A stretch of DNA of 51,360 nucleotides from Halopiger aswanensis (lineage in GTDB: Archaea; Halobacteriota; Halobacteria; Halobacteriales; Natrialbaceae). The notes below the pieces were generated by a model. The model ran no database searches. It was not told the DNA's origin and was given only the letters and a program-made list of their open reading frames with translations. The translations under genes were made by a program, and so were the position numbers. The stretch covers positions 1-51,360 of the forward strand of contig NZ_RAPO01000010.1 in assembly GCF_003610195.1 (NCBI RefSeq). The letters run 5' to 3'. Shown piece by piece: positions 7,692 to 39,230 of this stretch. Positions within the stretch are counted from its first letter, which is position 1, and every line of letters starts with the position of its first letter.

Positions 7692-8195
7692 ATGGAGTCC
7701 GAGGCGGTCGACGTAGTGATTGCAATGTCGATCAACACCGAACGCGGGGCCGAGGAGAAGGTGGCCGACAACGAACTCCCGGAACAGGTCAAGGAAACGA
7801 TTGAGACGATCGATCAGGACGGCACCCAGATCACGAAAGCGATCGCTGCCATCGTGGTTCAGGACATGGCCGACACCGATGTGATCAATCAGCTACACGA
7901 CGAACTCTCGTCGCTCCTACGAGAGCGGAGCCACGAGGTTGACGCCGTGTCCATGCACGAGGTCGCGATGGCACTGTGGTTTGAGCTCCGGTACATCGCG
8001 GAGACGATGGACGACAAGGAGGGAGCGGAGACCGGTGCCAGCTCCACGAACGGCGGGGTGGGATCAGAGTCCCCCGATGACGACGACTGGTGTGCCCCCG
8101 GTCAAACCGACCCGGACGCAGGAGAACGGGCGTCGCTCCTCGGATTTGATGGCGGCGAGTCGGACGAACCGCCGACCGACCCAGCGTTCCAGTGA
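7692..8195 (+). CDS. Unknown acidic helical protein, paralogue of 28936-29451
   Basis: The 167-residue protein is helical for about 110 residues, then has a disordered acidic tail. It is clearly paralogous to the protein at 28936. Shared blocks are QLHDELSSLLRE (QLHEELASMLRE), then HEVAMALWFELRYIAE (GEVAFALWTELAYIAE), and the identical last five residues DPAFQ. A shorter relative follows at 8534. ATG 7692 was chosen because both paralogues then begin Met-Glu-Ser. I recognise no family. The conserved terminal tail looks like a short binding motif. One copy sits beside the giant HEAT gene and another between the conjugation operon and the tubulin-like gene, which ties both ends of the island together. 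Confidence 0.7.
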   Translation: MESEAVDVVIAMSINTERGAEEKVADNELPEQVKETIETIDQDGTQITKAIAAIVVQDMADTDVINQLHDELSSLLRERSHEVDAVSMHEVAMALWFELRYIAETMDDKEGAETGASSTNGGVGSESPDDDDWCAPGQTDPDAGERASLLGFDGGESDEPPTDPAFQ

Positions 8196-14900: not shown

Positions 14901-15040
14901 GCCTGGCTAGCAGACGCCAGCGCTTCGAGCACGAACGGGAGTCGATCGACGCCCTCGACCGGCTCCCGCTCGATGGCCGTCAGCGCCGCTACGAGCGCTT
15001 CGTCGTACTGGGTCTCCACCTCGCTATCCGGTATCTTCAT
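8957..15040 (-). CDS. Giant HEAT-repeat scaffold protein, 2027 aa
   Basis: Apart from low-complexity acidic linkers (about 225-310 and 480-540), the protein is a continuous array of two-helix repeats of about 35-45 residues, many with a Trp-Asp/Glu pair at the turn, as in VGWDAVTPLIEAVLDH or HVGWDEARSVLDPI. These are HEAT/ARM-type repeats that form elongated solenoids for binding proteins. I see no enzymatic motif, signal peptide or membrane segment. ATG 15040 gives MKIPDSEVETQYDEALVAAL; no better start is visible. It is transcribed divergently from a second HEAT gene at 15241. At over 2000 residues it is very large for an archaeal protein. A scaffold or adaptor role is inferred from the fold only. 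Confidence 0.8.
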   Translation of the reverse strand: MKIPDSEVETQYDEALVAALTAIEREPVEGVDRLPFVLEALASASQAGEKQRIAAGVKSTGPEDVRDAALAALEAVAERAPSELATDAHVSVLVSLDRHLAVEPRIRMFELLGDLAAFVDTSTVADHYVPLINRSLKAATRATAHAVELLGRAYRAHPGADDLNRLMCRALAADEPAVRTVAVGALGHALAADNPPLGLVAVLQGTDPVAAARTESPDPIAQAEESINSRQRRAPLSSLVDDVSTPGESDIFSDGGPYDASAIAIGRSMSDSQEDRTGTTGGTGDASTADEAVNADGPSGLERQDRQHLQAKAVAAVRALDGADRVRSIARTCLGEFATADHPARRAAVAHSTGHALGDVKTDQARNIALFTLGHLITDPERAVRLRTLRAVETYLDGLEPSTELRETILDRHVTDPREHLATVISTAMEIYGLSDRETYSLALDIETTYTDELRHQTDRSLVPESADQTDEPADVRHRLPLGNRREEPAGVESTENQRDGPVGESDPVDTASQDNGDRDRRHDTGDHPGPPDDWNDDEKRRWLDRQVEALVAADDPVVAITDAYHDAEETAQRVAAIWAIGDRFRSVPDEVTRAERERFATLLETAADNEDTGVRCAVVRTVLVAYESSVEWPWADVVDHLQHAFDDPAYRVRRTAFIALAAAIQSLDVSFEQVTTVRKLERLLDEDPTERLASRGDRPVETAFDLELLGDAVAAGDCDPDAVAPLLRRGLASPIPVVRHGAVIGIARCLGAGAIEWQNVEPQFHDLLGQPPAVVEAGVHAAYTAVETDETDWTAVKPFFRAVFERVPEVGRRALAVRVADLLRAGHVSWNDSTARRWLEHSLRRSDDDETLASIVALLADAVVDDRVPLEDAFDLVEPLFRGTTTVDLESDIDPETSVLFVYRLLDKDALTTAQLQALYDRLPSTATDHERRYLAAAAAELIRDGTVGIAPFRSFLAECLERSSVDSAEVAAGTIFLGLRDGAVDPATVLPLLERGVENETAAVAERVLTLIGVALHEGWLRLRSVTHLIRDGLYHESEDVAHQATGSLLHAVTAGTIDEEPLVDLLDRAVRHPADDIAQTGFVAIQGGFQAGTVSVESVEHLLWAGLDHANDAVVREAVRAVGGGLLFRGPHDPMSDNPPQWFDIGNHDDPVPWSACRRFLDAAIRSDSDRVRREAIHTIRLALSTGHAEWSEVADWFETAVDDPVPRVTETGLEVAVGLAAKESVGWDAVTPLIEAVLDHDHNRTAHTAFMGLAAAISVGELPFDRYRPDLERALDRSTAIAETTIAGVRDAVINGHVDIRQARSLFADAIRERNAISSDAVLEALGTIVVHTTPKWEAVAPVLALGLDEETAHEATKVVSIGVFKGAFDWADVRPFAVDAIDRGGELAVSAVDLFGQAIIRGTDSPADLIAFLNRAVDDTRPAIREHAMIVLHDALVNHEWTVDWGDIEPLLEACAAVDGDTAPILAAVDCCEASVGSTGVDWDDAAPFLRRARSHQDEEVRIAATKAAGRLVDRVDWDALRSFLRQALAEDSPELADPALRSLVVGFEENHLTWDDAWDLIADGLAHDTDAVVARALYAAGGGCYHGAVGWSTIQPLYQDAIAHNDSRVTQEAVGSLEQLLDAGRVDCEDVESLLSTVVERAVNGETNPEAAVDALAIVKTLLEDRTIEWATTRPVLEHGIEIDYGPARAAACDAVTAAIDAGHVGWDEARSVLDPITEDRSSPVPDEALLAAVTAAVVDDSVAYGVIRPAVESLTTELDPTTSERALRTVADEHTPALTGADLADLVGDLLPVLVPDHTTALLEVAIRSNAHPVDDADAMALLKRVIRTGAPVIQSMAIRLAADRFGVADDRTVETTTGLLNLDDPPAEVLLAAADVFERRSDWEGAADAAAELLVECTASASGDVRRRGFGLAADRFAAIPTGERQTIVAKALDECCTASSPVSVRARAADVLNAALRSDEEIVLDAAMDRPGTRAGVEATLRDAPILTAATKVSLVRLLTRLEPNGVYERSTVGSHSH

Positions 15041-15240: not shown

Positions 15241-16857
15241 ATGTCACGAGCACTGCGCCGTGAACTCCGCTCGATAGACGACCAGTTCTCTGAGCGCGAC
15301 GGCGACGAGTTCGAGCCCGAGGAACTGGACGTGATCGTCGAGGGGATGGAGGCCTCGGAGCCCCGGACCCGAAGTTCGGCAGTTCGGCTCTTGGACACCA
15401 CGGATGTCGACGCCACGACGCTCCCGATGGACCATCTCCAGCCGGTCCTGGTCGACCTCATTAAGCAGGGCATCGACGCTGATGATCGGCGTATCAAGCG
15501 CACGGCCGAGCGGGCCGCGCGAGTCCTGGCGAAGTACGGGCTGACCGATCCCGAGGCGATCGCTGACCTCACGCACCTTGGCGAGTCGATGCTTGCGGTA
15601 TCCGATCCGCAGCTCCGGACCGGCGGCTCCGCGCTGCTCGGCCCGGTACTGATGGCCGACGACTACGAGCCCGGGGTGGACGAGGTCGACGCCATGACCC
15701 ACCACGTCGTGATGACCGTACAACTCGTCGACGGGTTCAGGCAACAGATCGACCTGATCGTGCCGGCGCTGGTCGCGCTCGCGAACTTACCGGACGACCT
15801 TCTCGACCGCGTCCCGCCACAGCTCGACAGCGTGGATCTGACGCCGTTTCTGACGGCTTCCTACGGAAAGAGCCGGCGAGGCGTCGCGAGGCTCCTGCAG
15901 ACGCTCGCGCCCACTGCCCCCGAGTTCGTAAAGAAGTATGTCCCCGACCTCACGACGCGGCTGGACGACGACGAACCGTTCGTCTCCGAGGCCGCCTCGA
16001 TCGCTCTGACCACCCTCGCCGACCGGATCGGTCGTGCGGCGCTGGAGCCGGCGCTGATCTCGCTCCCCGACGTTCTCGAGGGCGACGACCAGGCCCGACG
16101 ATCGGCGCTCCGCGTGGTCGCGGCGATGGCGGACACCGACCCCGGGATGCTCAAGCGCGTCCCCGTAGAGCGGATCGAGGCGATCGGTCGGGACCTCGAT
16201 CCCGGGTCGGCCAGTCGGGAGCGGGCGTGGGCGATTCGAACACTGGGTGCGCACGCTGCCGAGGCCGGCGCGACCGGTGTCGTCGAACTGACGGTCGAAC
16301 TCGCCTACGGCACCGTCGACGGCGCACCTGTCGACGACGCCATCGTGGCGATCACGCCGCTCCAGCGTGGCCTGCGGGACGCGGTCCTGGCAGCCCCCGC
16401 GACGGCGGCCTGTTCGGTCCCTGCCGACGCCGACTGGCCGCCAGCGGCCGATCTCGGTCCGGAACTCCCGCTTGGCCGCTTGAACAACACGATCGCCAAC
16501 CTCGATCCGAACGGAACCAGGGCAGAGCTCGCCGAGGCAGTGTCCGAGGGCGACTCAGCGGACGGCCCCGGGGTAGACTCGGCGCTGCTGGGTTACTGGA
16601 TCACCGGCTACGCCGTCCGCGGGGCGTTCCAGACCGAGCCGACGGTCCTCGACAACGTCGCGTCCATCGTCACGGACGGGGAGCAGCCTCTCCCCAGACG
16701 GCGACTACTCGCGGGCGCACTAACCGTCGTCCAGGTGCTTGAGGACCTCGACGAGTCGGCCAGCGATCGACTGGCATCTGTCGGGATGGCCCTCGAAGAC
16801 GCGTCGGACGATTCGCTCGACCTGCTCGGACGGGCCCTGCGCGCGGAGGACGATTGA
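15241..16857 (+). CDS. HEAT-repeat protein, 538 aa
   Basis: The protein is made of helical pairs of HEAT type through most of its length, for example TRSSAVRLLDTTDVDATTL, RRGVARLLQTLAPTAPEFVK and RRSALRVVAAMADTDPGMLK. Its overall look recalls adaptin or importin-like solenoids. No catalytic or membrane motif is visible. It starts at ATG 15241 with a well-placed TATA box and is divergent from the giant HEAT gene. The metallophosphoesterase gene follows 51 bases later on the same strand, so the two may be cotranscribed. Probably a binding scaffold; partner unknown. Confidence 0.8.
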   Translation: MSRALRRELRSIDDQFSERDGDEFEPEELDVIVEGMEASEPRTRSSAVRLLDTTDVDATTLPMDHLQPVLVDLIKQGIDADDRRIKRTAERAARVLAKYGLTDPEAIADLTHLGESMLAVSDPQLRTGGSALLGPVLMADDYEPGVDEVDAMTHHVVMTVQLVDGFRQQIDLIVPALVALANLPDDLLDRVPPQLDSVDLTPFLTASYGKSRRGVARLLQTLAPTAPEFVKKYVPDLTTRLDDDEPFVSEAASIALTTLADRIGRAALEPALISLPDVLEGDDQARRSALRVVAAMADTDPGMLKRVPVERIEAIGRDLDPGSASRERAWAIRTLGAHAAEAGATGVVELTVELAYGTVDGAPVDDAIVAITPLQRGLRDAVLAAPATAACSVPADADWPPAADLGPELPLGRLNNTIANLDPNGTRAELAEAVSEGDSADGPGVDSALLGYWITGYAVRGAFQTEPTVLDNVASIVTDGEQPLPRRRLLAGALTVVQVLEDLDESASDRLASVGMALEDASDDSLDLLGRALRAEDD

Positions 16858-23835: not shown

Positions 23836-24744
23836 ATGCCTCCTCTTCACCAGCCAGACGGACGGGTTACGTCCGCTCCGACCGAGACGTGGGACTCCGC
23901 AAAGTGCATCGATCCGCGATTCCGCAACAAGGTGTGGAACGACGTCTTGGGCTCCTCTCGTAAGCGCGACGTCTTTCTCGCAGTGCGGGAACTCGCCGAG
24001 GAGCGGGCCTGTCTCGAGAAGACCGAGATCGCGACGAAGGCCCTCGCGTACCCGCACTTTCGGGACCGGGACAAGCTCCAGGGTGGCGATCTCGGCGACA
24101 ACGGCGACCTCGAACCGTTGTGTGAACTCGGCGCCGTCATGCCCATCCCGAAGATCGCTCGCCCGAGCGTCGCGTATATCGTGCCGTTCCAGGAACTGTG
24201 CCAGTACCTAGTCGATCCGTACCACGCTCCGGACTCGGTGCGAGTTCGCCTCGCTATCGAGTACTACCTGCGACATCGGGGGCGGAACGGGGTAAGTGAC
24301 GTCCGTAGCAAATGCGGGCGGGATCTCCCGATCGATCCCTTCGCGGTTGAACTCTACACGTACGTCCAGCTGGCGGAGCAATTGGACGTCGGGATCGACC
24401 GCGTCGAATACAGCGGCTTCCGTCCGGCGGCGATTGATCACGATCATGCCCGTGGATTCGAAATCGAAGGGACCCTCCACGGTGTGGAACCGGACGACGG
24501 GTCTGAGATCGACGATGCCGGGGTGAAGCGGGTCCTCGAGACGCTATTCGTCGAGTTCGTCGATCACGCCGCCCGGGGGAAGGACATCTTCCGGATCGGA
24601 ATGTATCGCTGCGACGACGAGTCGGACACGGAACGTGCCGCCAGGCGGCGGGCGATCACCGATTCGGCGACCTTCGAGCAATACGATCGTCGCGGAGCTG
24701 CCGTGACCGTCTCCTGGCAGGTCGAGCCGGTCATCATGATCTGA
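23836..24744 (+). CDS. Unknown 302-aa protein, N-terminal winged-helix-like segment
   Basis: Residues about 35-120 look like a winged helix: RKRDVFLAVRELAEE, then LEKTEIATKAL, then LCELGAVMPIPK and a hydrophobic strand VAYIVPF. The C-terminal half mixes strands and helices, with no motif I recognise. The layout resembles the first 110 residues of the protein at 18560, so both may belong to the same loose family. ATG 23836 is the best start. It is followed by a 545-base spacer and then the ubiquitin-like operon, and could be its regulator, but that is conjecture. Confidence 0.6.
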   Translation: MPPLHQPDGRVTSAPTETWDSAKCIDPRFRNKVWNDVLGSSRKRDVFLAVRELAEERACLEKTEIATKALAYPHFRDRDKLQGGDLGDNGDLEPLCELGAVMPIPKIARPSVAYIVPFQELCQYLVDPYHAPDSVRVRLAIEYYLRHRGRNGVSDVRSKCGRDLPIDPFAVELYTYVQLAEQLDVGIDRVEYSGFRPAAIDHDHARGFEIEGTLHGVEPDDGSEIDDAGVKRVLETLFVEFVDHAARGKDIFRIGMYRCDDESDTERAARRRAITDSATFEQYDRRGAAVTVSWQVEPVIMI

Positions 24745-25289: not shown

Positions 25290-25520
25290 ATGGGACAAAC
25301 CGTTCAGCTTGAAGGCCAGGAGATTCCGATCGAGAGCGACATGACCGCAGCGGAACTCAAGAACGAGGCCAATGTCGACGACGACGCCGTCCTCACCTAT
25401 CGGGACGAGGACGGCATTGAATCGCTCAACGACGACGACGTCGTCGCGGAGCACGTCGATGACGGCCAGGAGATCCAGGCACAGCCGCTCGCCGACGACG
25501 GGGTGTTCGGCGGGGGATGA
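25290..25520 (+). CDS. Ubiquitin-like modifier with C-terminal Gly-Gly-Gly, 76 aa
   Basis: The product begins MGQTVQLEGQEIPIESDMTA and ends DGVFGGG. The order of elements fits a beta-grasp fold: strand pair, helix TAAELKNEA, strand AVLTYRDED, and a final strand GQEIQAQP before a flexible tail. The exposed C-terminal glycines are the feature that lets ubiquitin-like proteins be adenylated and conjugated, and here they are already at the terminus, so no processing is needed. Lys24 is the only lysine. ATG 25290 is chosen over an in-frame ATG at 25161 because the upstream residues are unstructured and the second UBL shares only this domain. The stop overlaps the next start (ATGA). Confidence 0.8.
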   Translation: MGQTVQLEGQEIPIESDMTAAELKNEANVDDDAVLTYRDEDGIESLNDDDVVAEHVDDGQEIQAQPLADDGVFGGG

Positions 25521-25957
25521 ACGTCGAGCGGGCCGTCAGCGAACTGACCGAACTCCGGGAGACGCTTGCCCAGCGACAGCAGGTCCAGGTCAGCTACGAC
25601 CTTGCGACCCGAGGCGTCATCCGGATCGACGGCCTGGAGTTCCCGCCGGGCTGGGAGACGCCGGACGGCAGTCGGCGCGGCGCAGTGCTGCTGGATCTAC
25701 CCGAGGAGTACCCGCGGTACCGGCCGCGCGTTTACATCTCCGAGTCGATGCGCCTCCGTGGGGATCGACCGCCGGTGATGGTCCCTGAACGCATCGACGG
25801 CGACGGTCGATGGGCACAGGTCGACGTCTTCTCCGCTGACGCCGAGTGGAACCCGGAAACAGACGACCTGCTGACCATCTTTGAGCGGCTCCAGCGGCGG
25901 CTTCGCTCCCAGGCCGCGACGGGACGGGACTCTGACGACGCCGTTGAGGACTGCTGA
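25517..25957 (+). CDS. E2-like protein without active-site Cys (UEV-like)
   Basis: The 146-residue protein overlaps the UBL stop by 4 bases. It has the E2 (UBC) landmarks: N-terminal helix, strands, LPEEYPRYRPRVYI (about 61-74, like the YPxxPP segment), and W111-N-P113 followed by a helix, as in the canonical WxP block. Relative to its paralogue at 26379, the position of the catalytic Cys is occupied by Val104 (ungapped). The only Cys is the last residue, Cys146. It should therefore not form the usual E2 thioester and may act as a non-catalytic partner like eukaryotic UEV proteins. A role for the terminal Cys cannot be excluded. Confidence 0.75.
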   Translation: MNVERAVSELTELRETLAQRQQVQVSYDLATRGVIRIDGLEFPPGWETPDGSRRGAVLLDLPEEYPRYRPRVYISESMRLRGDRPPVMVPERIDGDGRWAQVDVFSADAEWNPETDDLLTIFERLQRRLRSQAATGRDSDDAVEDC

Positions 25958-26001
25958 CACATGACCGGCTTCCGGCCGGTGTACCGACTTACTACGACAC
26001 C

Positions 26002-26382
26002 ATGACCGAGGACGACTCAACTCAGCACGCACGAACGATCACGGACGAACAGCCAGCGGAAGACGAACTGGCCTTACAGGATGATCCGGCCGCCACCGAC
26101 GCACCAGACGCCGCCGAAAGAAGCGAGGAAGACGACACCGAGGCCGCGGTCGTGACCTATCGGCTCGGCGCCGACGAGATCGCGGTGCCGGAAGGTACCG
26201 TCGCGGCTGACCTCAAGCGCGACCACGACGTTCCGGCGGAGGCCGTGTTGACCTTCCGGGACGAGGACGCCGGCGAAATAGTCGCACTCAACGACGAGGA
26301 CGTCGTGACCGACCACGTCCCGCCCGGGACCGAACTGCAGTCCCAGCCCCTCTCGGGGTCGGAGGTGTTCGGACGAGCATGA
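26002..26382 (+). CDS. Second ubiquitin-like protein, acidic N-terminal extension, no di-glycine
   Basis: The 126-residue protein has about 47 acidic residues of linker, then a beta-grasp domain clearly homologous to the UBL at 25290: AVLTFRDEDAGEIVALNDED matches the same region there, and both tails run QPL...VFG. Here, however, the end is VFGRA instead of VFGGG. It lacks the di-glycine and would need trimming, or cannot be conjugated in the usual way. Lys72 is the only lysine and occupies the same helix position as Lys24 of the first UBL. Its stop overlaps the next E2-like gene by 4 bases, repeating the UBL/E2 pair layout. Confidence 0.75.
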   Translation: MTEDDSTQHARTITDEQPAEDELALQDDPAATDAPDAAERSEEDDTEAAVVTYRLGADEIAVPEGTVAADLKRDHDVPAEAVLTFRDEDAGEIVALNDEDVVTDHVPPGTELQSQPLSGSEVFGRA

Positions 26383-26795
26383 ACGTCGCGGACGTGATCG
26401 TCGAGATCGAGGAACTGAAAGCGGAGATTGGGAAGCGCCAGAGCGCGCGAATGAACTACGACCTCACCGAGGGCGTCGTCACGATCGAGCAGTTGACGCT
26501 GCCCGAAGGCTGGGAGAACAAGCACGGCACCCGCCACGCCGACATGCGGTTCGACCTCGACGAGACCTATCCCCGGAGCCAGCCGACCGTCTACATCAGC
26601 AGCGACATCCGGTACGAGGGAACGAGCCCACACGTACTGTACGCGCGTTCGTCGGCGCCGCCGGGATTCGTCAAGTACTGCATACACACGCTCTCGGACT
26701 GGGACCCGCAGGAACACGACCTCGTGACGATGTTCCGAATCCTGGAGGTCTCGCTGGAGAACCCGCACTCGGACAACCCGCTGGTGGAGGCCTGA
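26379..26795 (+). CDS. E2-like conjugating enzyme with candidate catalytic Cys101
   Basis: The 138-residue paralogue of 25517 has ETYPRSQPTVYISSD (about 62-76) and then KYCIHTLSDWDPQEHDLVTM. The Cys101-x6-Trp-x-Pro arrangement and following helix superpose on the canonical E2 block in which the catalytic Cys precedes a WSP motif. It is thus the likely catalytic E2 that carries the modifier as a thioester. The His-Pro-Asn motif of eukaryotic E2s is not visible. The overlap with the second UBL (ATGA) and a one-base gap to the JAMM-E1 gene show an operon. Catalytic activity is inferred, not shown. Confidence 0.8.
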   Translation: MNVADVIVEIEELKAEIGKRQSARMNYDLTEGVVTIEQLTLPEGWENKHGTRHADMRFDLDETYPRSQPTVYISSDIRYEGTSPHVLYARSSAPPGFVKYCIHTLSDWDPQEHDLVTMFRILEVSLENPHSDNPLVEA

Positions 26796-26796
26796 C

Positions 26797-28608
26797 ATGA
26801 CGGCTACAAGCGACATCGCAAGTGAGACCGTGTCCGACACTGTCACCGACGAGTACGAACTCGTGCTCACCGCGACCCAGGTCCGGCGGCTCCGGGAATG
26901 GTTGCTCCGAGACGACGGCATCGAGCGGTTCGCGTATGTCTACTGCACTCCTGAGGACGGCCGGCTGTTCGCCCGGGAGATCGATCCCGTCCCGGGCGAG
27001 GACTGCGAGGTCCAAGAGGAGGCCGCCGTCCGGCCGGCGCTCTCGGTCGAGCGTGAGCGGCTGGGATCGGCACTCGAGGACGGCCTCGTGCCGGTCATGC
27101 TGCACAGCCACCCGTTCAGTGACTACCCATCATTCAGCGGCCTCGACGACGACATCATGGAATCCTACCGTGAGTGGCTCGGCGGGCTCTATCCGGACAC
27201 GCCGCTGTGTTTTGGCGTGCTCGGCCACCGCGGGATGGACACGGCCGTCTACATCGATCCCCAGCGCGAGACGCGGCGTCGCCTCCCTGTCGAGGTCGTC
27301 GGCGACTGGGCGCTGGAGGGCCCGCTGGACGCTCCCACTGCCCCGACGACGGCGACGGTCGACGAGGACCGCTACGACCGGTCGATCCGCGCGCTGACTG
27401 AACGCGGCCAGCAGCGGCTCGCCGACCGGACGATCGGGATCGTCGGCCTCGGCGGCCTCGGCTCGATCGTCGCGACACAGCTCGCCCGCCTCGGCGTCCG
27501 GCGGTTCGTCTTCTCCGACCCGGACCACGTCGAGCGGTCGAACCTGCCGCGGATCTACGGTGCGACCGAGGCAGACGTCGGCCGGCCGAAGGTCGAGGTC
27601 GTCAGTGAGCACGTGGTCCGTGCCAACCCCGAGGCGAGCGTCGACGCCTACGAGGCACGCGTTCAGGACGTTCCCAAGGACGCGCTCGCCGCGTGTGATG
27701 TCCTGATCGGTGCTGTCGACAGGCTGACCGCTCGCCTCTACTGTAACGAATTCGCCATTCGTCACCTGCGTCACTACGTCGACGCCGGCGTCTCGATTGA
27801 GACCACCGACGACGGGCATATCACCGAGGAGCGGGGACTCGTCCAGCTGGTCGCACCCGGCGTAACCGGCTGTCTGGACTGTCTCGGGCGGAACGACCCT
27901 GAGCGGCTCCGCCTCGAGTCAATGGACGAGGCGGAGATCGAGGCCGACATCGAGCGCGGGTACCTCGACGAGGACGTGCGGTCGCCCGAGCCCGCGATCA
28001 CACCCCTGAACGCGCTCGCGGCGAACACGACCGTCCGGATGGTGACGAAACTCGTCACCGGCTACGAGGCGCCTGCCGACTACGTCCGGCTCGACGGGAC
28101 CACCAACGAGATGGTCTCCGTCGGCACCCACCCCTCGAGGGAGTGTCTGACCTGCGGTACGGACGGGTGTCTCGGCGAGGGGACACAGCGCATCGACGAG
28201 GACACACTTGCGGAGGCGGAGTCGCTGGACCTCGACGTCGACCTCGAGGAACTGGCCGAGCAAGACGCGACGGCGACGCCGACCGAGATCACCGCCGATT
28301 CACTCCGGCCGGCTGCACCCCGTCCCGGGGACGATGCCGGTCCTGCCCCGGAGATCGACAGTCAATCCCAGTCTGTCGCCGGCGGATGGTATGGCACGGA
28401 GTCGCCACCTGCAGCGGAGGACCCCAGCGGCGATGATGCCGAAGCGCCCCTTGCATCCGCCAGCGGGGACACCATGCGAGACGACGATCGTTCGCGCAGC
28501 GATCTCTCGGGGAGCGCGCAGCTGTTGGCGGTTCTGCGGACGAACGCCTGTCCGATCGCGATCGGCTGTCTGGGTGTGCTGGCGCTCTGGCGGTATCTCC
28601 GCCGGTGA
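26797..28608 (+). CDS. JAMM (MPN+) peptidase-E1 fusion with C-terminal membrane anchor
   Basis: 603 residues in three parts. A JAMM domain (about 18-165) has Glu43, HSHP (103-106) and SGLD (114-117), the metal site of deubiquitinase-type isopeptidases. An E1/ThiF domain (about 190-460) has GLGGLGS (217-223), DPDHVERSNLPR (241-252), Lys265 and Asp308, the ATP site for adenylating a UBL C-terminus. Cys359/362 and Cys450/453 fit the structural zinc site. I see no Cys in the crossover loop where many E1s carry the catalytic one; Cys458 is the only spare. A disordered linker leads to a final hydrophobic helix (about 583-598) followed by RYLRR, a tail anchor. Fusion of E1 and JAMM is known in prokaryotic UBL systems. 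Confidence 0.9.
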   Translation: MTATSDIASETVSDTVTDEYELVLTATQVRRLREWLLRDDGIERFAYVYCTPEDGRLFAREIDPVPGEDCEVQEEAAVRPALSVERERLGSALEDGLVPVMLHSHPFSDYPSFSGLDDDIMESYREWLGGLYPDTPLCFGVLGHRGMDTAVYIDPQRETRRRLPVEVVGDWALEGPLDAPTAPTTATVDEDRYDRSIRALTERGQQRLADRTIGIVGLGGLGSIVATQLARLGVRRFVFSDPDHVERSNLPRIYGATEADVGRPKVEVVSEHVVRANPEASVDAYEARVQDVPKDALAACDVLIGAVDRLTARLYCNEFAIRHLRHYVDAGVSIETTDDGHITEERGLVQLVAPGVTGCLDCLGRNDPERLRLESMDEAEIEADIERGYLDEDVRSPEPAITPLNALAANTTVRMVTKLVTGYEAPADYVRLDGTTNEMVSVGTHPSRECLTCGTDGCLGEGTQRIDEDTLAEAESLDLDVDLEELAEQDATATPTEITADSLRPAAPRPGDDAGPAPEIDSQSQSVAGGWYGTESPPAAEDPSGDDAEAPLASASGDTMRDDDRSRSDLSGSAQLLAVLRTNACPIAIGCLGVLALWRYLRR

Positions 28609-28935: not shown

Positions 28936-29451
28936 ATGGAGTCGGTAGTCATGACTGCGATGGCGATCCAATCCGAACTCGAGACAGAACCGGAGGTCGA
29001 CCCCAGCGACCTGGACGACGAGTCGATTGAAACGGCGGTCGTCGAATTACTTCAGGCGGCTGTCGGCGATGACATCGCCCGCGTCGATCGCCGGGGTGAC
29101 CGGATCAAGCAGCTCATGGCGGCGATCATCGTCCGGCAGCAGGCCGACGGCGAGGTGTCGAGCCAGCTCCACGAAGAACTGGCGTCGATGCTCCGGGAGA
29201 CGGTCCAGGAGAGCGAGGATGTTGGCGTTGGCGAGGTCGCGTTCGCGCTCTGGACCGAACTGGCGTACATCGCGGAGAAGGTTGCAGGTGACGAGGACGA
29301 CGAGGACGAGACCGACGGCCCGCAGTCCGAGGAGGGTCCGGTGCCGGACCGGGACGATGGGTCTGACCAGCAAGATGACGATGACTCCAACTCCCTCCTC
29401 CTCACTGGCGACGAGTCCGAGGGCTCCGTCTCGGACCCGGCGTTCCAGTGA
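28936..29451 (+). CDS. Unknown acidic helical protein, paralogue of 7692-8195
   Basis: About 171 residues. The helical part (to about 118) aligns with the protein at 7692 through DRIKQLMAAIIVRQQADGEV, SSQLHEELASMLRE and GEVAFALWTELAYIAEK. The acidic tail again ends in DPAFQ. ATG 28936 makes the protein begin Met-Glu-Ser like its paralogue; ATG 28930 is also possible. It lies between the conjugation operon and the tubulin-like gene. The conserved C-terminal pentapeptide suggests a docking motif for a shared partner. Family not recognised. Confidence 0.7.
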   Translation: MESVVMTAMAIQSELETEPEVDPSDLDDESIETAVVELLQAAVGDDIARVDRRGDRIKQLMAAIIVRQQADGEVSSQLHEELASMLRETVQESEDVGVGEVAFALWTELAYIAEKVAGDEDDEDETDGPQSEEGPVPDRDDGSDQQDDDDSNSLLLTGDESEGSVSDPAFQ

Positions 29452-29785: not shown

Positions 29786-32176
29786 ATGAGCGAACGAAAG
29801 AACATCGTTATCTCGCTTGGCACCAGCGGATTTCGGACCGCGACGACGATCCACCGACTGGTACAGGAGTACGGGCTCGCCGATCAGTTCACCTTCGTCT
29901 CGATCGAGACGGCCGCGCTGAACGACGAGGAGATCCCGCCGAGCTTCGAGACGGTTGAACTCCGCCGCGACGACGCCGCCGAACAGCGCTTCGAGCAGTT
30001 GAAGGCGGAGGTGCCCTGGCTCGCCGACCGACTCGAACTCGCCAACCAGGGCGCGACCAGCACGCCGCCGATCGGACGGTTCCTGCTGGAGTACTACCAC
30101 CAGCAGGTGTACGCGTCTGTCGAGCAGGTCCTCTCAGAGTTCGTCGACGCTCACGAAACCGACGAGCTGTCGACTTGGCTCGTGGGGGCGCTCTCGGGAG
30201 GGACGGCTGCGGGCATGCTGCCGCTGCTGAGCCCGATGGTCCGCCGGATCGTCGAGAGCTACGCAGACCGCCACGACATCGAGGCAGAGATCGTGGCCGC
30301 GGGCACGGTCTCGAAGTTCGAGCACCGCCACCAGCGGACCACGCTCGGGCCGACCCCCGAGACGTACGTCAACACTAACATCTCGCTCCAGCAGCTGACG
30401 ACGCTGATCAACGTCCCCGACGAGACCGCACAGCGTCCGGATCCGTACCCGATCGAACTGCCGATGGACGCCGCTCCCAGCAGCAACGTGCTCGACGACG
30501 GGTTCGAGATCCGAGAACCGCCACTCGACGCAGTGGTCCTGCTGCCCGTCGACGAAGAGGAGATCGAAGCCGCCCCGCGGACCTCGGATGACGAGTTCTC
30601 GAACTACCGCGAGCACGTCAACTGGACGATCGCGACCGCGGTCCTGTCGATCACCCAAGCCACGGTCAAGATCGAGAACATCTTCACGCGGGGGTTCGAG
30701 GACCGCCTGCTGACCCTGGCGGCAGCCAGCGTTCGCGTCCCCGTGGAGGACGTGTACGACTACTTCCAGAGCCAGCAGGCGCTGACGGAGATCGACGGCG
30801 AGATCGCCGACCTCGAGGCCCGTGAGGCTGACCTCGAGGCGACGATCGCCGACCTTGACGACCTGATCGATGAGGAGGCCGACGTGACCCGGATCGACGT
30901 GGACAGCCTGAACGCCGACGCGCTCTCCGGGATCAGTCGCCCGGTCGCCGACGAACTTGACCGGATGCGGGAGACGGTTGCCGGACTGGATCTCACGGAC
31001 ACCTCTGCGGACGACCTCCGGACGTACGCTCAGCAGATCGCGGCCCAGATCGACCAGGGGGACGACGACTTCCCCCACGAGGCGATCGCGAAGCTGGTGT
31101 TCCACCGGCTGGTCAGTGACCAACTCAACGATCGGCTGGAGTCCCACGAGTTCGAGGCTACGGTCGAGGACTACTGGGCCAAGCACTCGGACGAACTGTC
31201 GGAGCACGCGCCCGGGCTTTCCGAGGCCGATCCCGACGAGAAGTACGAGCGGGGCATCGAGACCGTCCTGCAGAAGAAGCGCTCCCGGATCAAAACCGAA
31301 CTGGAGAACACCAGCGCCGTGCGCGTCGGCACGCGTCGGGAGCTTCGTAAGAAGCTCGACCGGAAGAAGCGGCTCCTGGCCAAGTTCAACCACCTGTACA
31401 ACGAGTTCACGGCGCTCCAGGACCTGGATGACACGCTCGACGAGCAGTTGCTCCCTGAGGTGCGGGTCGCACTCTGCCGGCAGCGTGACTCCCTGACGTC
31501 GACGCTGAACAACGTCCAGTCGGACCTCGAGGAACTGCGCGAGCACCGGTCGAACGTGGCGTCGACGGTGGAGACAGCCGAGACCCGGCTGACCGGCGAC
31601 AGGTCCGGGCCGCTCCAGACGCTGCCGCTGAACACCGACTCCCTCGAGTCCGTCAGTACCCGGACGTTCGACGAGGCCGACCACCTCCAGGATCTCGTCG
31701 ACGCCGACGTCGTCGACCGGGACGACCTGGTCGAAGCGCTCCAGGCGGCTATCGAGGGCCATCTGGACGAACCGTTGGAGGACTACATGCACCCCTCGCT
31801 CGACAACGTCGCGCAGGGGACGCTGTCGCTGCTGACCCACCGCGGGAACCAGCACGTCCTCTCAACGACGGCCACGACCGGCCAGACGCCGTCGTCGGCG
31901 ATGCCAGCCCAGAACATCACCGACCGACTGGACGTCGCCAGCGTGGACGCGCCGTTCACCGTGACGCTGGTTGCGCTCTACGAGGACGTCTCCCTGGCGA
32001 ATACCTCGGAACTGCGGCGCATCCACGAGCGCTGGGAGGAGGGGACCCTGAACGAGCTGTTCGGCCGGGACGTCCCCTTCGAGCGGAACATTGCGTATCC
32101 ACAGCTGTTCGTCGATGGGGCGACCGGCAGCCCGAATCCCGATCAAGATGCTGCCCCCGAGGCTGGAGGTGATTGA
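29786..32176 (+). CDS. Tubulin-like GTPase family protein with coiled coils (Tubulin_2-like)
   Basis: The 796-residue product from ATG 29786 begins MSERKNIVISLGTSGFRTAT, a nucleotide-binding strand-loop as in the tubulin T1 position. GALSGGTAAGMLPLL (134-148) corresponds to the tubulin signature GGGTGSG. This places it with the prokaryotic tubulin-like family Tubulin_2 rather than FtsZ or CetZ. The middle and C-terminal parts contain coiled-coil stretches (about 330-365, 496-540, 561-601), so it may polymerise or tether partners. A long antisense frame here is a shadow. The next gene, for a membrane protein, starts right at its stop codon, which suggests a physical link to the membrane. GTP binding is predicted from motif only. 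Confidence 0.75.
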   Translation: MSERKNIVISLGTSGFRTATTIHRLVQEYGLADQFTFVSIETAALNDEEIPPSFETVELRRDDAAEQRFEQLKAEVPWLADRLELANQGATSTPPIGRFLLEYYHQQVYASVEQVLSEFVDAHETDELSTWLVGALSGGTAAGMLPLLSPMVRRIVESYADRHDIEAEIVAAGTVSKFEHRHQRTTLGPTPETYVNTNISLQQLTTLINVPDETAQRPDPYPIELPMDAAPSSNVLDDGFEIREPPLDAVVLLPVDEEEIEAAPRTSDDEFSNYREHVNWTIATAVLSITQATVKIENIFTRGFEDRLLTLAAASVRVPVEDVYDYFQSQQALTEIDGEIADLEAREADLEATIADLDDLIDEEADVTRIDVDSLNADALSGISRPVADELDRMRETVAGLDLTDTSADDLRTYAQQIAAQIDQGDDDFPHEAIAKLVFHRLVSDQLNDRLESHEFEATVEDYWAKHSDELSEHAPGLSEADPDEKYERGIETVLQKKRSRIKTELENTSAVRVGTRRELRKKLDRKKRLLAKFNHLYNEFTALQDLDDTLDEQLLPEVRVALCRQRDSLTSTLNNVQSDLEELREHRSNVASTVETAETRLTGDRSGPLQTLPLNTDSLESVSTRTFDEADHLQDLVDADVVDRDDLVEALQAAIEGHLDEPLEDYMHPSLDNVAQGTLSLLTHRGNQHVLSTTATTGQTPSSAMPAQNITDRLDVASVDAPFTVTLVALYEDVSLANTSELRRIHERWEEGTLNELFGRDVPFERNIAYPQLFVDGATGSPNPDQDAAPEAGGD

Positions 32177-32178
32177 TC

Positions 32179-33066
32179 GTGCGGAATCGCACGAAGCTGA
32201 CGGCGCTGGCCGTCACGGCTGCGCTGGTGTTCGCGATCGGCGTCGGAGCGGTCGGTGGCGCCGTCGGCCACACCGGATCGCCCGCCGTCGCCGACGACGG
32301 GCAGGCGTCCGCCGACGCGTTCACCGTCGAGACCGAGCGCAATCCCGATCCGGACTCCAATCTGGTCACCGTTCGGCTCGCGATCGAGCCGACAGAGGCG
32401 ACGTTGACGGAGCTCGAGATCGTCGTCGAGCGCCGGGCGCAGTCCCTGGTCGTGCCGGACAGCTACACGACGACCATCTCGCCCAGTAACAACGCCGTCG
32501 AGGTCGATCACGCTGGGGGCAACGAGTTCACCGTCGACGAATTGGAGCCCGGCGAACAGGTCGTTATTGAGTTCCAGACGGTCACGACGGTCTCGGGCGA
32601 TGAGGCGGTCGACGTCGCTGGGATCGACGTCTCCTACACGCGCCACGGACAGCGGCTCTCAACCGACCTCACCGCAACCGGGGACACGACCACCCCGACC
32701 ACCGACACCAAGAGTGGAGGGGTCCCGCTTGTTCAGGTCAGCGGCGTCGGCGTGCTCGCGATCTTGCTCGGGCTCGCTGGCGGCGTCGTGATCGGCCGCT
32801 CCGGCGACGACGCTGCCGGCCGCCGCGAGGAGTGGGTAGAGGCAATCGAGGACATCGAGCCCCACGTCGACGACCCGATCGCGTCGTCGCGGCTTCAGCA
32901 GCTCCGCCGACGGCTGAGCGGCGGGAGTGACGATCTCTTCGATGACACCGACCCAGAGCTGGGGGACGGCGACGAACCGACCGGGTCGATCCTCGATCGC
33001 ATCGCCTCCGTGTTCGGCCGGAGTGACGACGACTCGGAGGACGACGAGTTCGACATCGAGCTGTGA
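32179..33066 (+). CDS. Type I membrane protein with acidic cytoplasmic tail
   Basis: GTG 32179 follows the tubulin-like stop by two bases; TTG 32173 would overlap it. Order of parts: an N-terminal hydrophobic leader (about 8-30), an extracellular beta-rich domain (about 45-165, with GEQVVIEFQTVTTV), a Thr-rich linker, one membrane span (about 188-208, SGVGVLAILLGLAGGVVIG), and an acidic cytoplasmic tail to the end. No enzymatic motif. The coupling to the tubulin-like gene suggests the tail anchors or senses the tubulin-like filament, analogous in layout only to a membrane receptor for a cytoskeletal protein. Confidence 0.7.
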   Translation: MRNRTKLTALAVTAALVFAIGVGAVGGAVGHTGSPAVADDGQASADAFTVETERNPDPDSNLVTVRLAIEPTEATLTELEIVVERRAQSLVVPDSYTTTISPSNNAVEVDHAGGNEFTVDELEPGEQVVIEFQTVTTVSGDEAVDVAGIDVSYTRHGQRLSTDLTATGDTTTPTTDTKSGGVPLVQVSGVGVLAILLGLAGGVVIGRSGDDAAGRREEWVEAIEDIEPHVDDPIASSRLQQLRRRLSGGSDDLFDDTDPELGDGDEPTGSILDRIASVFGRSDDDSEDDEFDIEL

Positions 33067-35633: not shown

Positions 35634-38600
35634 TCACTCGCGAAGCGCCCGGAGCCGCTCGTCGATCGTCGGGTGAGCCTCGGCCAGTGCGTAACCGCCG
35701 TGGAAGACCTGGAACTTCCTCGAGAGGACGTCCTCTGCGGCGTCGAGGTCCTCCGTCGACACGAAGTTCGTGCCGGTCGACGAGACGAGCGCTCGCCCGT
35801 CGCGCTCGCGTTCGAGCGCCTGAAGGCGTTCGAGTGCGGACGCGAGCTGATCTGTGCCGACGCGAGTAGCGGCGTACTGGTCGGCCTCGAACTCGCGGTC
35901 ATGGAAGTCGACGAGTTCGAAGAGCACGTCCTGGCCGACGAGCAGCGCCGATCCGACGACGCGCAGCCAGTACGAGAGTCGCGCGTCCCCGTGTTCGAAG
36001 TGCGCCTGTTCGTGCGCCACGATCGCCGCCTGTTGCTCCATCGTCGTCGCCTCCACCAGCGACTGCGAGAGGACGATTGCCCGCGTAGATCGGGTGTAGA
36101 GCGCGAACGAGGCCATGCTGTCGGTCCCGGTATACGTCCAGACCGGATAATCGGGGTCGAAGGCGACCGAGTCAAGCTGGTAGGACTCGTGGTTGGCCCG
36201 GACATCGTCGACGAACGTCCGGAACAGGTACAGCTGGTGGACGCTCCCGGCGGGGAGATACAGGATGATCGCGGACGCGACCAGCGGTGCGATCGAGAGG
36301 CCGATGTCGTTGGGGCCGCCCAGCGGCGTCCAGATCACGAGGAGGGCGGCGACCGCGACGCTACTCAGGAGGACGTTCCCCGCGACAACGAGGTCGGCCC
36401 CGACGCGGCTGTGGTCGCTTGCCGGATTCCGGGTGAAGTCGTAGTACCCGAGCTGGAGCCACTCAGCGTCGAGGGTCCGGTAGATCGAGACTCCAAGGGT
36501 GGCAACGAGCGCCGCTATGATAAGGTCGAAGGCCCACGCGAGCGGGAGCGGTCCGGGGGCGAGCACGATCAAGGCAGCGATGACAGCGGTGGGGAGCACC
36601 AGCACTGCCTGGGCGAACAGCGCCCGCCGCCCGAGCGGCGGGAATTGGATCCCGAAGGGGGCGCGCCGTCTGACGATGACTGGGAGGTCAATGATGCGCG
36701 TGAGCGCCCCGGTGGCGAGAAGACAGAGCACCGCCGTCCACCCGACGAGTAGCCGGAGGACGGTCCCGATATCGGCCACGACCGCGAACGGAGCGGAGCC
36801 AAGCAGCGCGAGCAGCAGCAGGTACAGCAGCCAGGCGGGATTGTAACTGGCGTAGGTCGCGGCGCGCTGTCGGTCGGCCACCAGCGGGTCCGGTGCCCGG
36901 TAGACCACGAGCGCCAGCTGATAGACCCGCAGCCCCGCCACGATAGCAACGCCGGTCAGCCACATCAACACTAGCGGGACGGCGAAGAGGGCGAGTACGG
37001 TGGGTCTGGTTGGATCGCTCAGGAAGGCGGCCAGATCGAGTCCGATCACGAACTCCGCGTAGACGCGAGCCGCGAGCAGGAGGACGAAGACCTGCACCGG
37101 GAACAGAAACACCCAGACCTGGAGGCCTTGGGGCGCCGAGATCTGCTGTCGGATTCTGTACCCGTTCCGCTCCCGTGCCGGTTCAAGTGACCAGTCGTAG
37201 CGCAGCCAGTGCTGGCCCGAGGTCCAGTACGCGGTGTTGCCTTCCCGGACGAGGTCGTAACCCTCGTCCAGTCGGGCCAGCCGATCCTGCACCGCTCGCG
37301 GGACGAGTTTGTAGACCGCCTCGCTCTCCCTGATCAGTGCGCTTGGCTGTCCGTCCGGGCCGTCGCGGGCGCCGAGCGCCGGTGTGTCCTCTTCCGGGGT
37401 CCATCCCGAGCGCAGCGTCGTCTGTCGTTCCGTCGTAGTCGGCCGACACGCTTCGAGCGTGTCATTCCCACCGAGCCAGACGACGGCACCGCGGACGACC
37501 GCCCGGATCCCGGCCAGCGGGTGCTGGAGCCAATCGATGACCCCGGACGGTCCCGGGAGGCCGGTCCGGGGGCACGGCACGACCGGCAGCGGGCGCGTCG
37601 GCAGGTGCTGGAGCCGCCAGATCCGGCCATCGGACTTGTCTCCGTCCAGTATCTCCAGGGCCGCCCCGAGGTCGTCGACCGCCACCTTTCCATCGACAGT
37701 GTCGTAATCCGTACGGAAGTCGCGCGTCTCGTGGTTGTCGGCCACCAGCAACGCCGTGTTCCCGCCGAACGGGGCCCCGAAGAGGTGGTATGCCGCGTCG
37801 CGGAGCGGACGATGATGGGACAGCCGAGACTGGGCGTGAGCGACCGCCGCCCGGAGTTGCGCTTCGGACAGGCGATCAAACGCCGCCTCTGTGACCGCTA
37901 TCGCCTGTCGACGACCCAGAACGCCTGCAAGCGGGCGGACGCACACGCCTGGATCGTCCACGACGATAACCGGCGGGAGCGGCCGGTCAGTCTCCAACGT
38001 GACGTCGATCGCGGTCCCGCGGCGGCGCAGTCGCCAGGTTCCGACGCTGGCGACGACGGCCGACGCTGCGGTCGCTCCCATGCCGATCGCCAGCGGGACC
38101 AGCCCCAGGCCGAGGAGGACGACCGAGAGCGTCCACTTTGGACCGGAAACCCCAGTCCAGACCGCCGCCAGCAGCGACTGTGCTGCCTCCGTCGACGACC
38201 AACTCGAATCATAAAGATCTGGAAGTAGCCACTCGGCACCGGCGACGAGACCATCCGGGAGGACTGTCCCACCGCCGACTGCCGCAGTGACGAGCGCGAT
38301 CGCCACGACGCCGAAGAGGGTCGCGGTCACGCTCGCCACGGCGACCGTTCCGCGGACGAGCCCCCGAATCCATCCGCTCGTGAGACCGTTTGCACCTACG
38401 TCTTCGAGTGCATCGAGGCGATGGCGGAACCGATCGGCCCTCGAGAGATGACTGGTCACGAGCGCCAGCGCGACGACCCCGACGACGACCGCCGTCGCGC
38501 TGCGAGTAAGCACGGCGAGATTCTCGACCTCGGCGCCCGGAGCGGTCGTGAGGCTATCGTCACTTAGAATGACGTCGTCGAGCGTGATGAGGAACTCGCC

Positions 38601-39230
38601 GCCGGCGCCCACGAGTCCGTACACGAGGATGGCGATCCACAGCGACATGGTGACCCACATGACGGTCTTCAGCCAGTACAAGGCTGGACGGCCGCCGTTG
38701 ACGTTCGCGTAGGGAATCACGTCCATCAACAGCACCTGCGTCAGGAAGATTGCGACGAACAACGCCACCCCGATTCCGAACAGTGGCTGGTCGACCGGGA
38801 GGAGATCAATTGCAAACCTGAGTACGTCGGCTCCGACCGCAACGGCCGTCACGAGCGTCGGCGGTCGGAGTTCGATCGTGTCGGACGATCGCGCGCCCGA
38901 AACTGGTTCGCGCATCGATGGGCCGTACAGCCCAGCAAGTACCAGCCCCCCGAACAGCCACGTCTGGTCACCGGTCAAGAGGGACCAGGCGGTGCTCAGG
39001 ACGACGAGATAAACGAGAAACCGTAGTCGGTCCGGTACTGATCGAACGACCCGAACCCGGTGGTCTCCGTCACCTTCACCTGACTCGATCGCGGCGCGTT
39101 CGGTGTAGAGACCGACGGCCCGCTGGCGAATCCAGTCCCCGTCCTCGGACCGGTCGAACGCCGCGTCGAGTGCAGAGCGAAGCGTCTCCTCATCCCCGTC
39201 GAACAGCCAGACGCGCTCGAACGTGTCCAT
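35634..39230 (-). CDS. Large multi-pass membrane protein with two M48 modules, one degenerate
   Basis: 1198 residues with many hydrophobic segments. The C-terminal module has the full M48 (HtpX/Ste24-type) signature: HEQAH (1073-1077), the third ligand in REFEADQYA (about Glu1113) and the family's end motif HPTIDERLRAL. An earlier module near residue 460 is arranged like M48 (LSEAQLRAAVAHAQSRLSHH), but the HExxH is replaced by HAQSR, so it should be inactive. The protein looks like a tandem duplication with one pseudo-protease half. M48 proteases cut membrane or misfolded proteins at the membrane face. It is the largest of three M48 proteins nearby and is divergent from the gene at 39521. Confidence 0.8.
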   Translation of the reverse strand: MDTFERVWLFDGDEETLRSALDAAFDRSEDGDWIRQRAVGLYTERAAIESGEGDGDHRVRVVRSVPDRLRFLVYLVVLSTAWSLLTGDQTWLFGGLVLAGLYGPSMREPVSGARSSDTIELRPPTLVTAVAVGADVLRFAIDLLPVDQPLFGIGVALFVAIFLTQVLLMDVIPYANVNGGRPALYWLKTVMWVTMSLWIAILVYGLVGAGGEFLITLDDVILSDDSLTTAPGAEVENLAVLTRSATAVVVGVVALALVTSHLSRADRFRHRLDALEDVGANGLTSGWIRGLVRGTVAVASVTATLFGVVAIALVTAAVGGGTVLPDGLVAGAEWLLPDLYDSSWSSTEAAQSLLAAVWTGVSGPKWTLSVVLLGLGLVPLAIGMGATAASAVVASVGTWRLRRRGTAIDVTLETDRPLPPVIVVDDPGVCVRPLAGVLGRRQAIAVTEAAFDRLSEAQLRAAVAHAQSRLSHHRPLRDAAYHLFGAPFGGNTALLVADNHETRDFRTDYDTVDGKVAVDDLGAALEILDGDKSDGRIWRLQHLPTRPLPVVPCPRTGLPGPSGVIDWLQHPLAGIRAVVRGAVVWLGGNDTLEACRPTTTERQTTLRSGWTPEEDTPALGARDGPDGQPSALIRESEAVYKLVPRAVQDRLARLDEGYDLVREGNTAYWTSGQHWLRYDWSLEPARERNGYRIRQQISAPQGLQVWVFLFPVQVFVLLLAARVYAEFVIGLDLAAFLSDPTRPTVLALFAVPLVLMWLTGVAIVAGLRVYQLALVVYRAPDPLVADRQRAATYASYNPAWLLYLLLLALLGSAPFAVVADIGTVLRLLVGWTAVLCLLATGALTRIIDLPVIVRRRAPFGIQFPPLGRRALFAQAVLVLPTAVIAALIVLAPGPLPLAWAFDLIIAALVATLGVSIYRTLDAEWLQLGYYDFTRNPASDHSRVGADLVVAGNVLLSSVAVAALLVIWTPLGGPNDIGLSIAPLVASAIILYLPAGSVHQLYLFRTFVDDVRANHESYQLDSVAFDPDYPVWTYTGTDSMASFALYTRSTRAIVLSQSLVEATTMEQQAAIVAHEQAHFEHGDARLSYWLRVVGSALLVGQDVLFELVDFHDREFEADQYAATRVGTDQLASALERLQALERERDGRALVSSTGTNFVSTEDLDAAEDVLSRKFQVFHGGYALAEAHPTIDERLRALRE

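Follow-up and report, generated by a model that had tools for sequence, protein, structure and literature searches.

A predicted Bub-type ubiquitin-like operon with a doubled UBL-E2 pair beside a tubulin-like gene in Halopiger aswanensis

A stretch of 51,360 nucleotides from the haloarchaeon Halopiger aswanensis (assembly GCF_003610195.1, contig NZ_RAPO01000010.1, positions 1 to 51,360; hereafter the window) carries five consecutive + strand open reading frames (ORFs) at 25290-28608, predicted to encode two ubiquitin-like proteins (UBLs), two E2-fold proteins and a JAMM peptidase-E1 fusion, with a tubulin-like gene downstream. As an explanation of the whole locus we consider it reasonably probable that a haloarchaeal Bub-type ubiquitin-like modification module is here joined to a tubulin-like machine. 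The features of the operon are as follows.

25290..25520, + strand: UBL1, 76 aa, predicted ubiquitin fold, C-terminus VFGGG
25517..25957, + strand: E2a, 146 aa, predicted E2 (UBC) fold without catalytic residue, UEV-like
26002..26382, + strand: UBL2, 126 aa, acidic N-terminal extension of ~45 aa followed by a ubiquitin-like domain, C-terminus VFGRA
26379..26795, + strand: E2b, 138 aa, E2-like, Cys101 within KYCIHTLSDWDP
26797..28608, + strand: JAB-E1, 603 aa, JAMM peptidase fused to a ThiF/E1 adenylation domain, two CxxC pairs
28522..28605, + strand: hydrophobic C-terminal segment of JAB-E1, sequence LLAVLRTNACPIAIGCLGVLALWRYLRR

The operon and its UBL and JAB-E1 products

The original prediction, made from the DNA letters, is borne out in the tight packing of the five genes, in the length of exactly 76 residues and the Gly-Gly-Gly end of the first UBL, in the YPxxxP and WxP blocks of the E2-like proteins (YPRYRP/WNP and YPRSQP/WDP) and in the joining of a JAMM peptidase (motif HSHP...S..D) to an E1 (ThiF, PF00899, E 3e-44) in the last gene. 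All five genes are kept in Natribaculum luteum at 55-86% identity, with ratios of non-synonymous to synonymous substitution (dN/dS) of 0.14 for UBL1, 0.27 for E2a, 0.24 for UBL2, 0.09 for E2b and 0.27 for JAB-E1; because of this conservation the genes are real rather than chance ORFs, and purifying selection acts on them.

The profile searches proposed as a check on the small proteins were partly informative: both E2-like proteins matched Prok-E2_E and UEV weakly in Pfam, UBL1 had no Pfam match and UBL2 matched only an unrelated family, below the threshold. A UBL profile run against PDB sequences also gave no sensible match, so structure was used for the UBL assignment. The AlphaFold model of UBL1 (predicted local distance difference test, pLDDT, 87) is a beta-grasp and all of its fold-search matches were ubiquitin-like or related beta-grasp proteins (VIA Z up to 9.8), so that UBL1 is predicted to have the ubiquitin fold. 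With the model of E2a (below), two of the four small proteins were modelled, and both came out with the expected beta-grasp and UBC folds. UBL2 and E2b are assigned to the UBL and E2 types by sequence comparison; UBL2 is 46% identical to UBL1 in the alignment and matches the UBL profile with E 8e-30, a value to be read knowing that UBL2 is itself in the training set of the profile.

The Gly-Gly-Gly end of UBL1, given in the original prediction as a UBL feature, proved not to be conserved in the family, where the constant tail element is Phe-Gly. UBL1 ends in VFGGG in the window, VFGTK in Natribaculum, VFGGP in Halolamina, VFGGR in Haloferax marisrubri and VFGGA in the Halorientalis metagenome-assembled genome (MAG), and UBL2 in VFGRA, VFGRR, VFGAR or VFGSS, or in Halorientalis exactly in VFG. 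The UBLs of single-copy relatives end in IFGAA, IFGTDRWSPL or YFGGAAGQ, or exactly in VFG/PFG (Salinigranum, G398 and G244), and those of bacterial relatives in FGHGNH or FGGGV; four relatives thus stop exactly at the Gly of Phe-Gly. Gly-Gly-Gly as the mature tail is ruled out by relatives ending in FG, FGTK, FGRA and the like, and the suggested mass spectrometry for Gly-Gly-Gly remnants would accordingly look for the wrong product. The tail comparison suggests instead that the residues past Phe-Gly are probably removable and that the mature end of UBL1 is predicted to be the Gly of Phe-Gly, residue 74, which would give the fused JAMM peptidase an obvious job.

In JAB-E1 the Prok-JAB match of the N-terminal part lies below the Pfam cut-off (E 0.045), and the JAMM residues are E43, H103, H105, S114 and D117. 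Comparison of three diverged copies showed E43, H103, H105, D117 and the nucleotide-site motifs to be invariant, and the invariant cysteines to be limited to C50 in the JAMM part and the CxxC pairs 359/362 and 450/453. The E1 therefore lacks a conserved catalytic cysteine, and for this reason direct transfer from the adenylate to an E2 seems more likely than an E1 thioester. Hydrophobic C-terminal tails similar to that of JAB-E1 occur in Natribaculum and in the other relatives with a duplicated pair, and the tail is likely a membrane anchor.

The ThiF/MoeB-type CxxC pairs, together with the missing catalytic Cys domain, would also suit a sulfur-carrier pathway in which the E1 makes a UBL thiocarboxylate in the manner of ThiS/MoaD and the E2 folds are structural. 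This appears very unlikely given the JAMM fusion, the Cys-bearing E2, the lack of recognised sulfur-metabolism genes nearby and the closest solved structures, which are Bub proteins: the best match of the E2 profile was Citrobacter BubB (E 1.5e-4) and that of JAB-E1 was Citrobacter BubCD (E ~1e-25 with a single sequence in phmmer, 4.6e-37 with a three-sequence profile). Since BubB and BubCD are the closest solved relatives, the operon is best read as the form that the bacterial Bub / class 6e pathway takes in haloarchaea and not as a system of an unknown kind.

The two unequal E2s and the Bub family

The model of E2a (pLDDT 86) has the UBC fold, with Citrobacter BubB at Foldseek rank 1 (VIA Z 13.0, root mean square deviation 2.8 over 121 residues), followed by other E2s at VIA Z ~10 and the ubiquitin E2 variant (UEV) domain of Tsg101 at Z 9.8; E2a is thus predicted to be an E2 fold. 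The two E2s had been treated as equivalent in the original prediction, and this did not hold. At the position of E2b Cys101 (alignment column 147), Cys was present in five of five E2b sequences and in the six other haloarchaeal E2s examined, whereas the seven E2a sequences carried Asp, Ser or Glu; no Cys, Ser or Thr was invariant anywhere in the alignment of these seven E2a from seven clusters. This lack of a conserved nucleophile indicates that E2a is a catalytically dead, UEV-like protein in every tubulin-linked cluster. E2a is no pseudogene, as its dN/dS against Natribaculum attests. A separate case was seen in G128 (L063, 9464-10263), where an independent E2 pair in reverse order, active then Cys-less, accompanies one UBL and a JAB-E1, with no tubulin seen.

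In the E2 tree, E2a (support 94/96) and E2b (90/87) each formed a clade and, with the single-copy Salinigranum sequence, belonged to a set supported at 96/97. Because E2a and E2b each fall on one side of a branch within that set, the simplest history would be that the E2 duplicated once, close to the point at which the tubulin-linked clusters arose. That the UBL-E2 pair was duplicated as a unit, as originally proposed, is therefore backed by the tree on the E2 side; the UBL tree, with 11 of 15 inner branches open, allows no conclusion on duplication. Each UBL gene overlaps the E2 gene that follows it by four bases (ATGA), and the same overlap is present in Natrinema and Deinococcus, relatives with a single copy. 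Since single-copy and bacterial operons share these overlaps, they do not prove that the pair was duplicated as a unit and provide no evidence on this point. The loss of the Cys in E2a would be independent of the eukaryotic UEVs (Mms2, Uev1, Tsg101/Vps23), because E2a stands nearer to BubB and to the E2b of its own operon than to these; the likeness lies in a Cys-less E2 fold standing beside a Cys-bearing E2, and suggests that a UEV-type dead partner arose separately in archaea.

Bub is a named bacterial pathway family for which its discoverers listed 544 operons (PMC13373217). The window shares with it a ubiquitin-fold UBL encoded first, a BubB-like E2 and a JAB-E1 fusion with intact JAMM residues. 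The original proposal of an operon of ubiquitin type, with UBL, E2-fold and JAMM-E1 genes and a duplicated UBL-E2 pair, was right. The window differs in being archaeal, in the doubling of the UBL-E2 pair beside a tubulin-like gene, in the CxxC pairs and membrane tail of its E1 and in the residue at the E2 site, where BubB carries Ser, E2b carries Cys101 and E2a has no conserved nucleophile. The Ser of Citrobacter BubB may serve as an oxyester nucleophile, as reportedly described by Ye in 2026. The set is an archaeal relative of the described bacterial Bub / class 6e family, which the original prediction did not name.

Class 6e of Iyer 2006 comprises multiubiquitin, Prok-E2_E, JAB-E1 and a metal-binding protein, and its E2s were described as Cys-less (PMC1779556). 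Plasmids of Bradyrhizobium and Deinococcus showed this layout in the form of multiubiquitin, E2/UBC and ThiF genes, and the E2s of these two bacteria have a Ser adjacent to the Cys101 column in the alignment (FSWH). The window resembles class 6e in the order UBL, E2, JAB-E1, and in Phe-Gly tails followed by a few residues (FGHGNH, FGGGV). Of its two E2s, E2a lacks the Cys and E2b, unlike the 6e E2s as described, has it; a further difference is that no DUF6527 or phosphotransferase gene was recognised past the E1. The gene that follows JAB-E1 in the window matched nothing in Pfam, and no metal-binding gene was annotated after JAB-E1 in the haloarchaeal relatives seen. Related sets were found in other archaea, namely the haloarchaeal G081 (L034, 6549-8583), whose Bub-like set has an E2 with Ser as in bacteria (RRFSWHRKKKWDP), and G410 and G437 (L100, L101) outside the haloarchaeal order, in which UBL and E2 are fused in one ORF before JAB-E1 and the E2 has a Cys.

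Among other systems, the bacterial ISG15-like BilABCD has a comparable Ubl/E1/E2/JAB set, but its E1 has a Cys domain and its JAB is separate, whereas the window E1 has a single ThiF domain, a fused JAB and no conserved catalytic Cys. In the Bil system JAB processes the Ubl tail (PMC11354881). The haloarchaeal SAMP/UbaA system likewise pairs ubiquitin-fold modifiers with an E1-like enzyme, but SAMP uses no E2; JAB-E1 scored 78 bits against the UbaA model (cut-off 450), and the GG ending, a SAMP trait, is not conserved among the relatives of the window UBLs.

Linkage to a tubulin-like gene

The tubulin linkage, which the original prediction did not single out, is the most unusual feature of the locus. 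The tubulin-like gene starts 1.2 kb downstream of JAB-E1, and its product matches PF13809 with 34.2 bits (cut-off 27). The genes concerned are the following.

23836..24744, + strand: 302-aa protein, function unassigned, kept in tubulin/UBL clusters by tblastn matches
28939..29451, + strand: ORF for an acidic helical protein in the E1/tubulin interval, no Pfam match
29786..32176, + strand: tubulin-like protein (PF13809), coiled-coil middle predicted
32173..33066, + strand: predicted membrane protein overlapping the tubulin stop, by tblastn a recurrent neighbour of other haloarchaeal tubulin-like genes

The 302-aa protein had tblastn matches in G041, Halolamina, Haloferax marisrubri, Halorientalis, G010 and G055. 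Relatives of the acidic helical protein lie beside tubulin in Natribaculum and by the E1 in Halolamina, and a paralogue with the same C-terminal ending (DPAFQ) occurs ~21 kb away in the window (7668-8195).

Across 392 genomes of the order, sampled as one genome per species, a tubulin relative was present in 13, an E2 relative in 10 and both in six (Fisher p 7e-8, a test that, like the other p-values here, takes genomes or sites as independent and that counts G010 and G055 separately though they belong to one genus). In the shared genomes the two genes were close together on one contig every time. The clusters in which the UBL-E2 pair proved to be doubled are those of the window, two Natribaculum species, Halolamina pelagica, Haloferax marisrubri and the Halorientalis MAG, and tubulin was present in every duplicated-pair genome searched for it (N. 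longum, read for its UBL/E2/E1 genes only, was outside that search); among the clusters searched, the doubled arrangement was thus found only with a tubulin-like gene. The linkage could be merely shared cargo of a plasmid island, as relatives carry the locus on plasmids and conservation between the window and Natribaculum extends to many other genes. This is rather unlikely, however, since the linkage recurs in Natrialbaceae, Halolamina, Haloferax and Halorientalis with partly different flanking genes, and the duplicated arrangement keeps to tubulin.

In two genomes of one genus (G010 and G055, both ~99% complete), UBL1 and E2a lie inside a tubulin cluster, and UBL2, E2b and JAB-E1 were not found by the searches done on those genomes. 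Their UBL1 tail is VFR, without the terminal Gly, and the pair is under selection between them (E2a dN/dS 0.15, p 2e-6; UBL1 0.28, p 0.03). Because these genomes keep a selected pair without E1, E2b and UBL2, UBL1-E2a probably has a non-covalent role without conjugation, and G010/G055 are the strongest sign of such an independent role. In G010, vWA and Hsp70 genes come after the UBL1-E2a/tubulin cluster; at L061 (15406-17088) an Hsp70 with a C2H2 zinc-finger segment lies beside UBL1-E2a, vWA and transglutaminase-like genes. The E1-less clusters bear on two further explanations. That UBL1-E2a is left over from the duplication and now decaying would fit its lost catalytic Cys and the faster evolution of E2a than of E2b against Natribaculum, but seven clusters from several genera have kept the pair intact, and it stays under purifying selection even without an E1, which makes decay highly improbable. 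The original picture, in which UBL1-E2a and UBL2-E2b form two complete conjugation tracks that run side by side and are served by one E1, accounts for the presence of two UBLs and two E2-fold proteins with one E1; with no conserved nucleophile in any of the seven E2a and with E2a persisting where there is no E1, it is the least credible of the explanations considered.

Membrane remodelling was proposed by Makarova and Koonin in 2010 for the FtsZl1 tubulin family, in a paper whose main text mentions no ubiquitin genes (PMC2875224), and conflict systems were proposed by Kaur in 2020 from tubulin, HSP70, vWA and, separately, Ubl conjugation (PMC7159879). The window shares with these a tubulin-like gene with a coiled coil and, in relatives, vWA and Hsp70 neighbours, and either role would fit the locus. 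It differs in the loop of the tubulin-like protein, which reads LSGGTAAG in the window and Natribaculum and not GGGTG(S/T)G, the canonical loop kept in distant haloarchaeal relatives. A rival explanation is an anti-virus defence operon like BilABCD or CBASS cap2/3, in which the UBL would be put on viral or host proteins during infection and the tubulin-like, vWA and Hsp70 proteins would be threshold or effector parts. Apart from the Kaur prediction, this draws on MoxR and vWA genes adjoining the E1 in Natribaculum, vWA and Hsp70 in G010, the patchy, plasmid-borne distribution of the locus and a GmrSD restriction gene within the window. On the other side, the PADLOC matches were all of the generic E1-E2 kind and confined to the ThiF domain, phage protection by Bub has so far not been demonstrated (PMC13373217) and the E1-less G010/G055 variant misfits a conjugation-based defence. 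A scan of viral contigs with E2b alone found no relative. Defence is compatible with a Bub-type module joined to a tubulin-like machine and is possible, if somewhat doubtful.

Elsewhere in the window, a GmrSD-type restriction gene (3126-5636, - strand), an IS240-like transposase (5882-6556, - strand) and a protein with weak M78/ArdC similarity (46286-47218, - strand) are signs of a mobile or defence region. A 2027-aa HEAT-repeat protein (8957-15040, - strand) and a second HEAT-like protein (15241-16857) both have Natribaculum relatives, and three different membrane-embedded M48-type metalloproteases lie within 10 kb (35634-39230, - strand; 39521-41335, + strand; 43750-45480, - strand).

Proposed mechanism and significance

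In the proposed mechanism, the JAMM half of JAB-E1 would trim each UBL after Phe-Gly, as its residues are intact and several relatives naturally end at this Gly, and the ThiF half, with intact nucleotide-site motifs, would adenylate the Gly. Because the E1 lacks a catalytic Cys, the UBL may pass straight from the adenylate to Cys101 of E2b, which would attach it to targets, with E2a probably assisting as a non-catalytic UEV-type partner. The JAMM half could also take the UBL off targets, and the hydrophobic tail would keep the E1 at the membrane. UBL1 and E2a may be specialised for the tubulin-like machine and able to act without conjugation, the best-supported part of this scheme because some genomes keep only these two; as a hypothesis, the likeliest job would be to regulate how the tubulin-like complex assembles or comes apart under stress or attack. 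What the sequences themselves show is that E2a is a dead E2 and that the genes are linked to tubulin.

Several observations weigh against reading the locus as a Bub-type module linked to tubulin. An HPN motif is missing from E2b, and no E3 was seen at the locus; with E2a lacking a catalytic residue and the E1 a conserved catalytic Cys, the original claim that every step of the pathway is encoded is not confirmed. The UBL tree and the separate counting of two congeneric genomes, both given above, fall on the same side. Seven other tubulin-like loci had no UBL or E2 nearby when searched with sensitive profiles, and single-pair UBL-E2-E1 operons had no tubulin in the surrounding stretches searched, so that the modules are separable and neither needs the other.

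More specifically, and tentatively, E2a could be an archaeal UEV: a dead E2 that came from duplication in a Bub-type operon and came, with its UBL partner, to regulate a filament machine of tubulin type by non-covalent means, outliving the conjugation enzymes in some genomes, as an independent parallel to Mms2/Tsg101. How a dead E2 gains a conjugation-free role would thereby become testable. The E2 site offers a natural experiment, with Ser in bacterial relatives, Cys in haloarchaeal ones and neither in the duplicated copy. Haloferax, a genus with genetic tools, holds one relative of what would be a compact E2 system in haloarchaea. The system studied so far is the E2-free SAMP (PMC2948915). 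Two eukaryote-like parts, modification of the ubiquitin type and a relative of tubulin, would also be brought together in a single prokaryotic locus.

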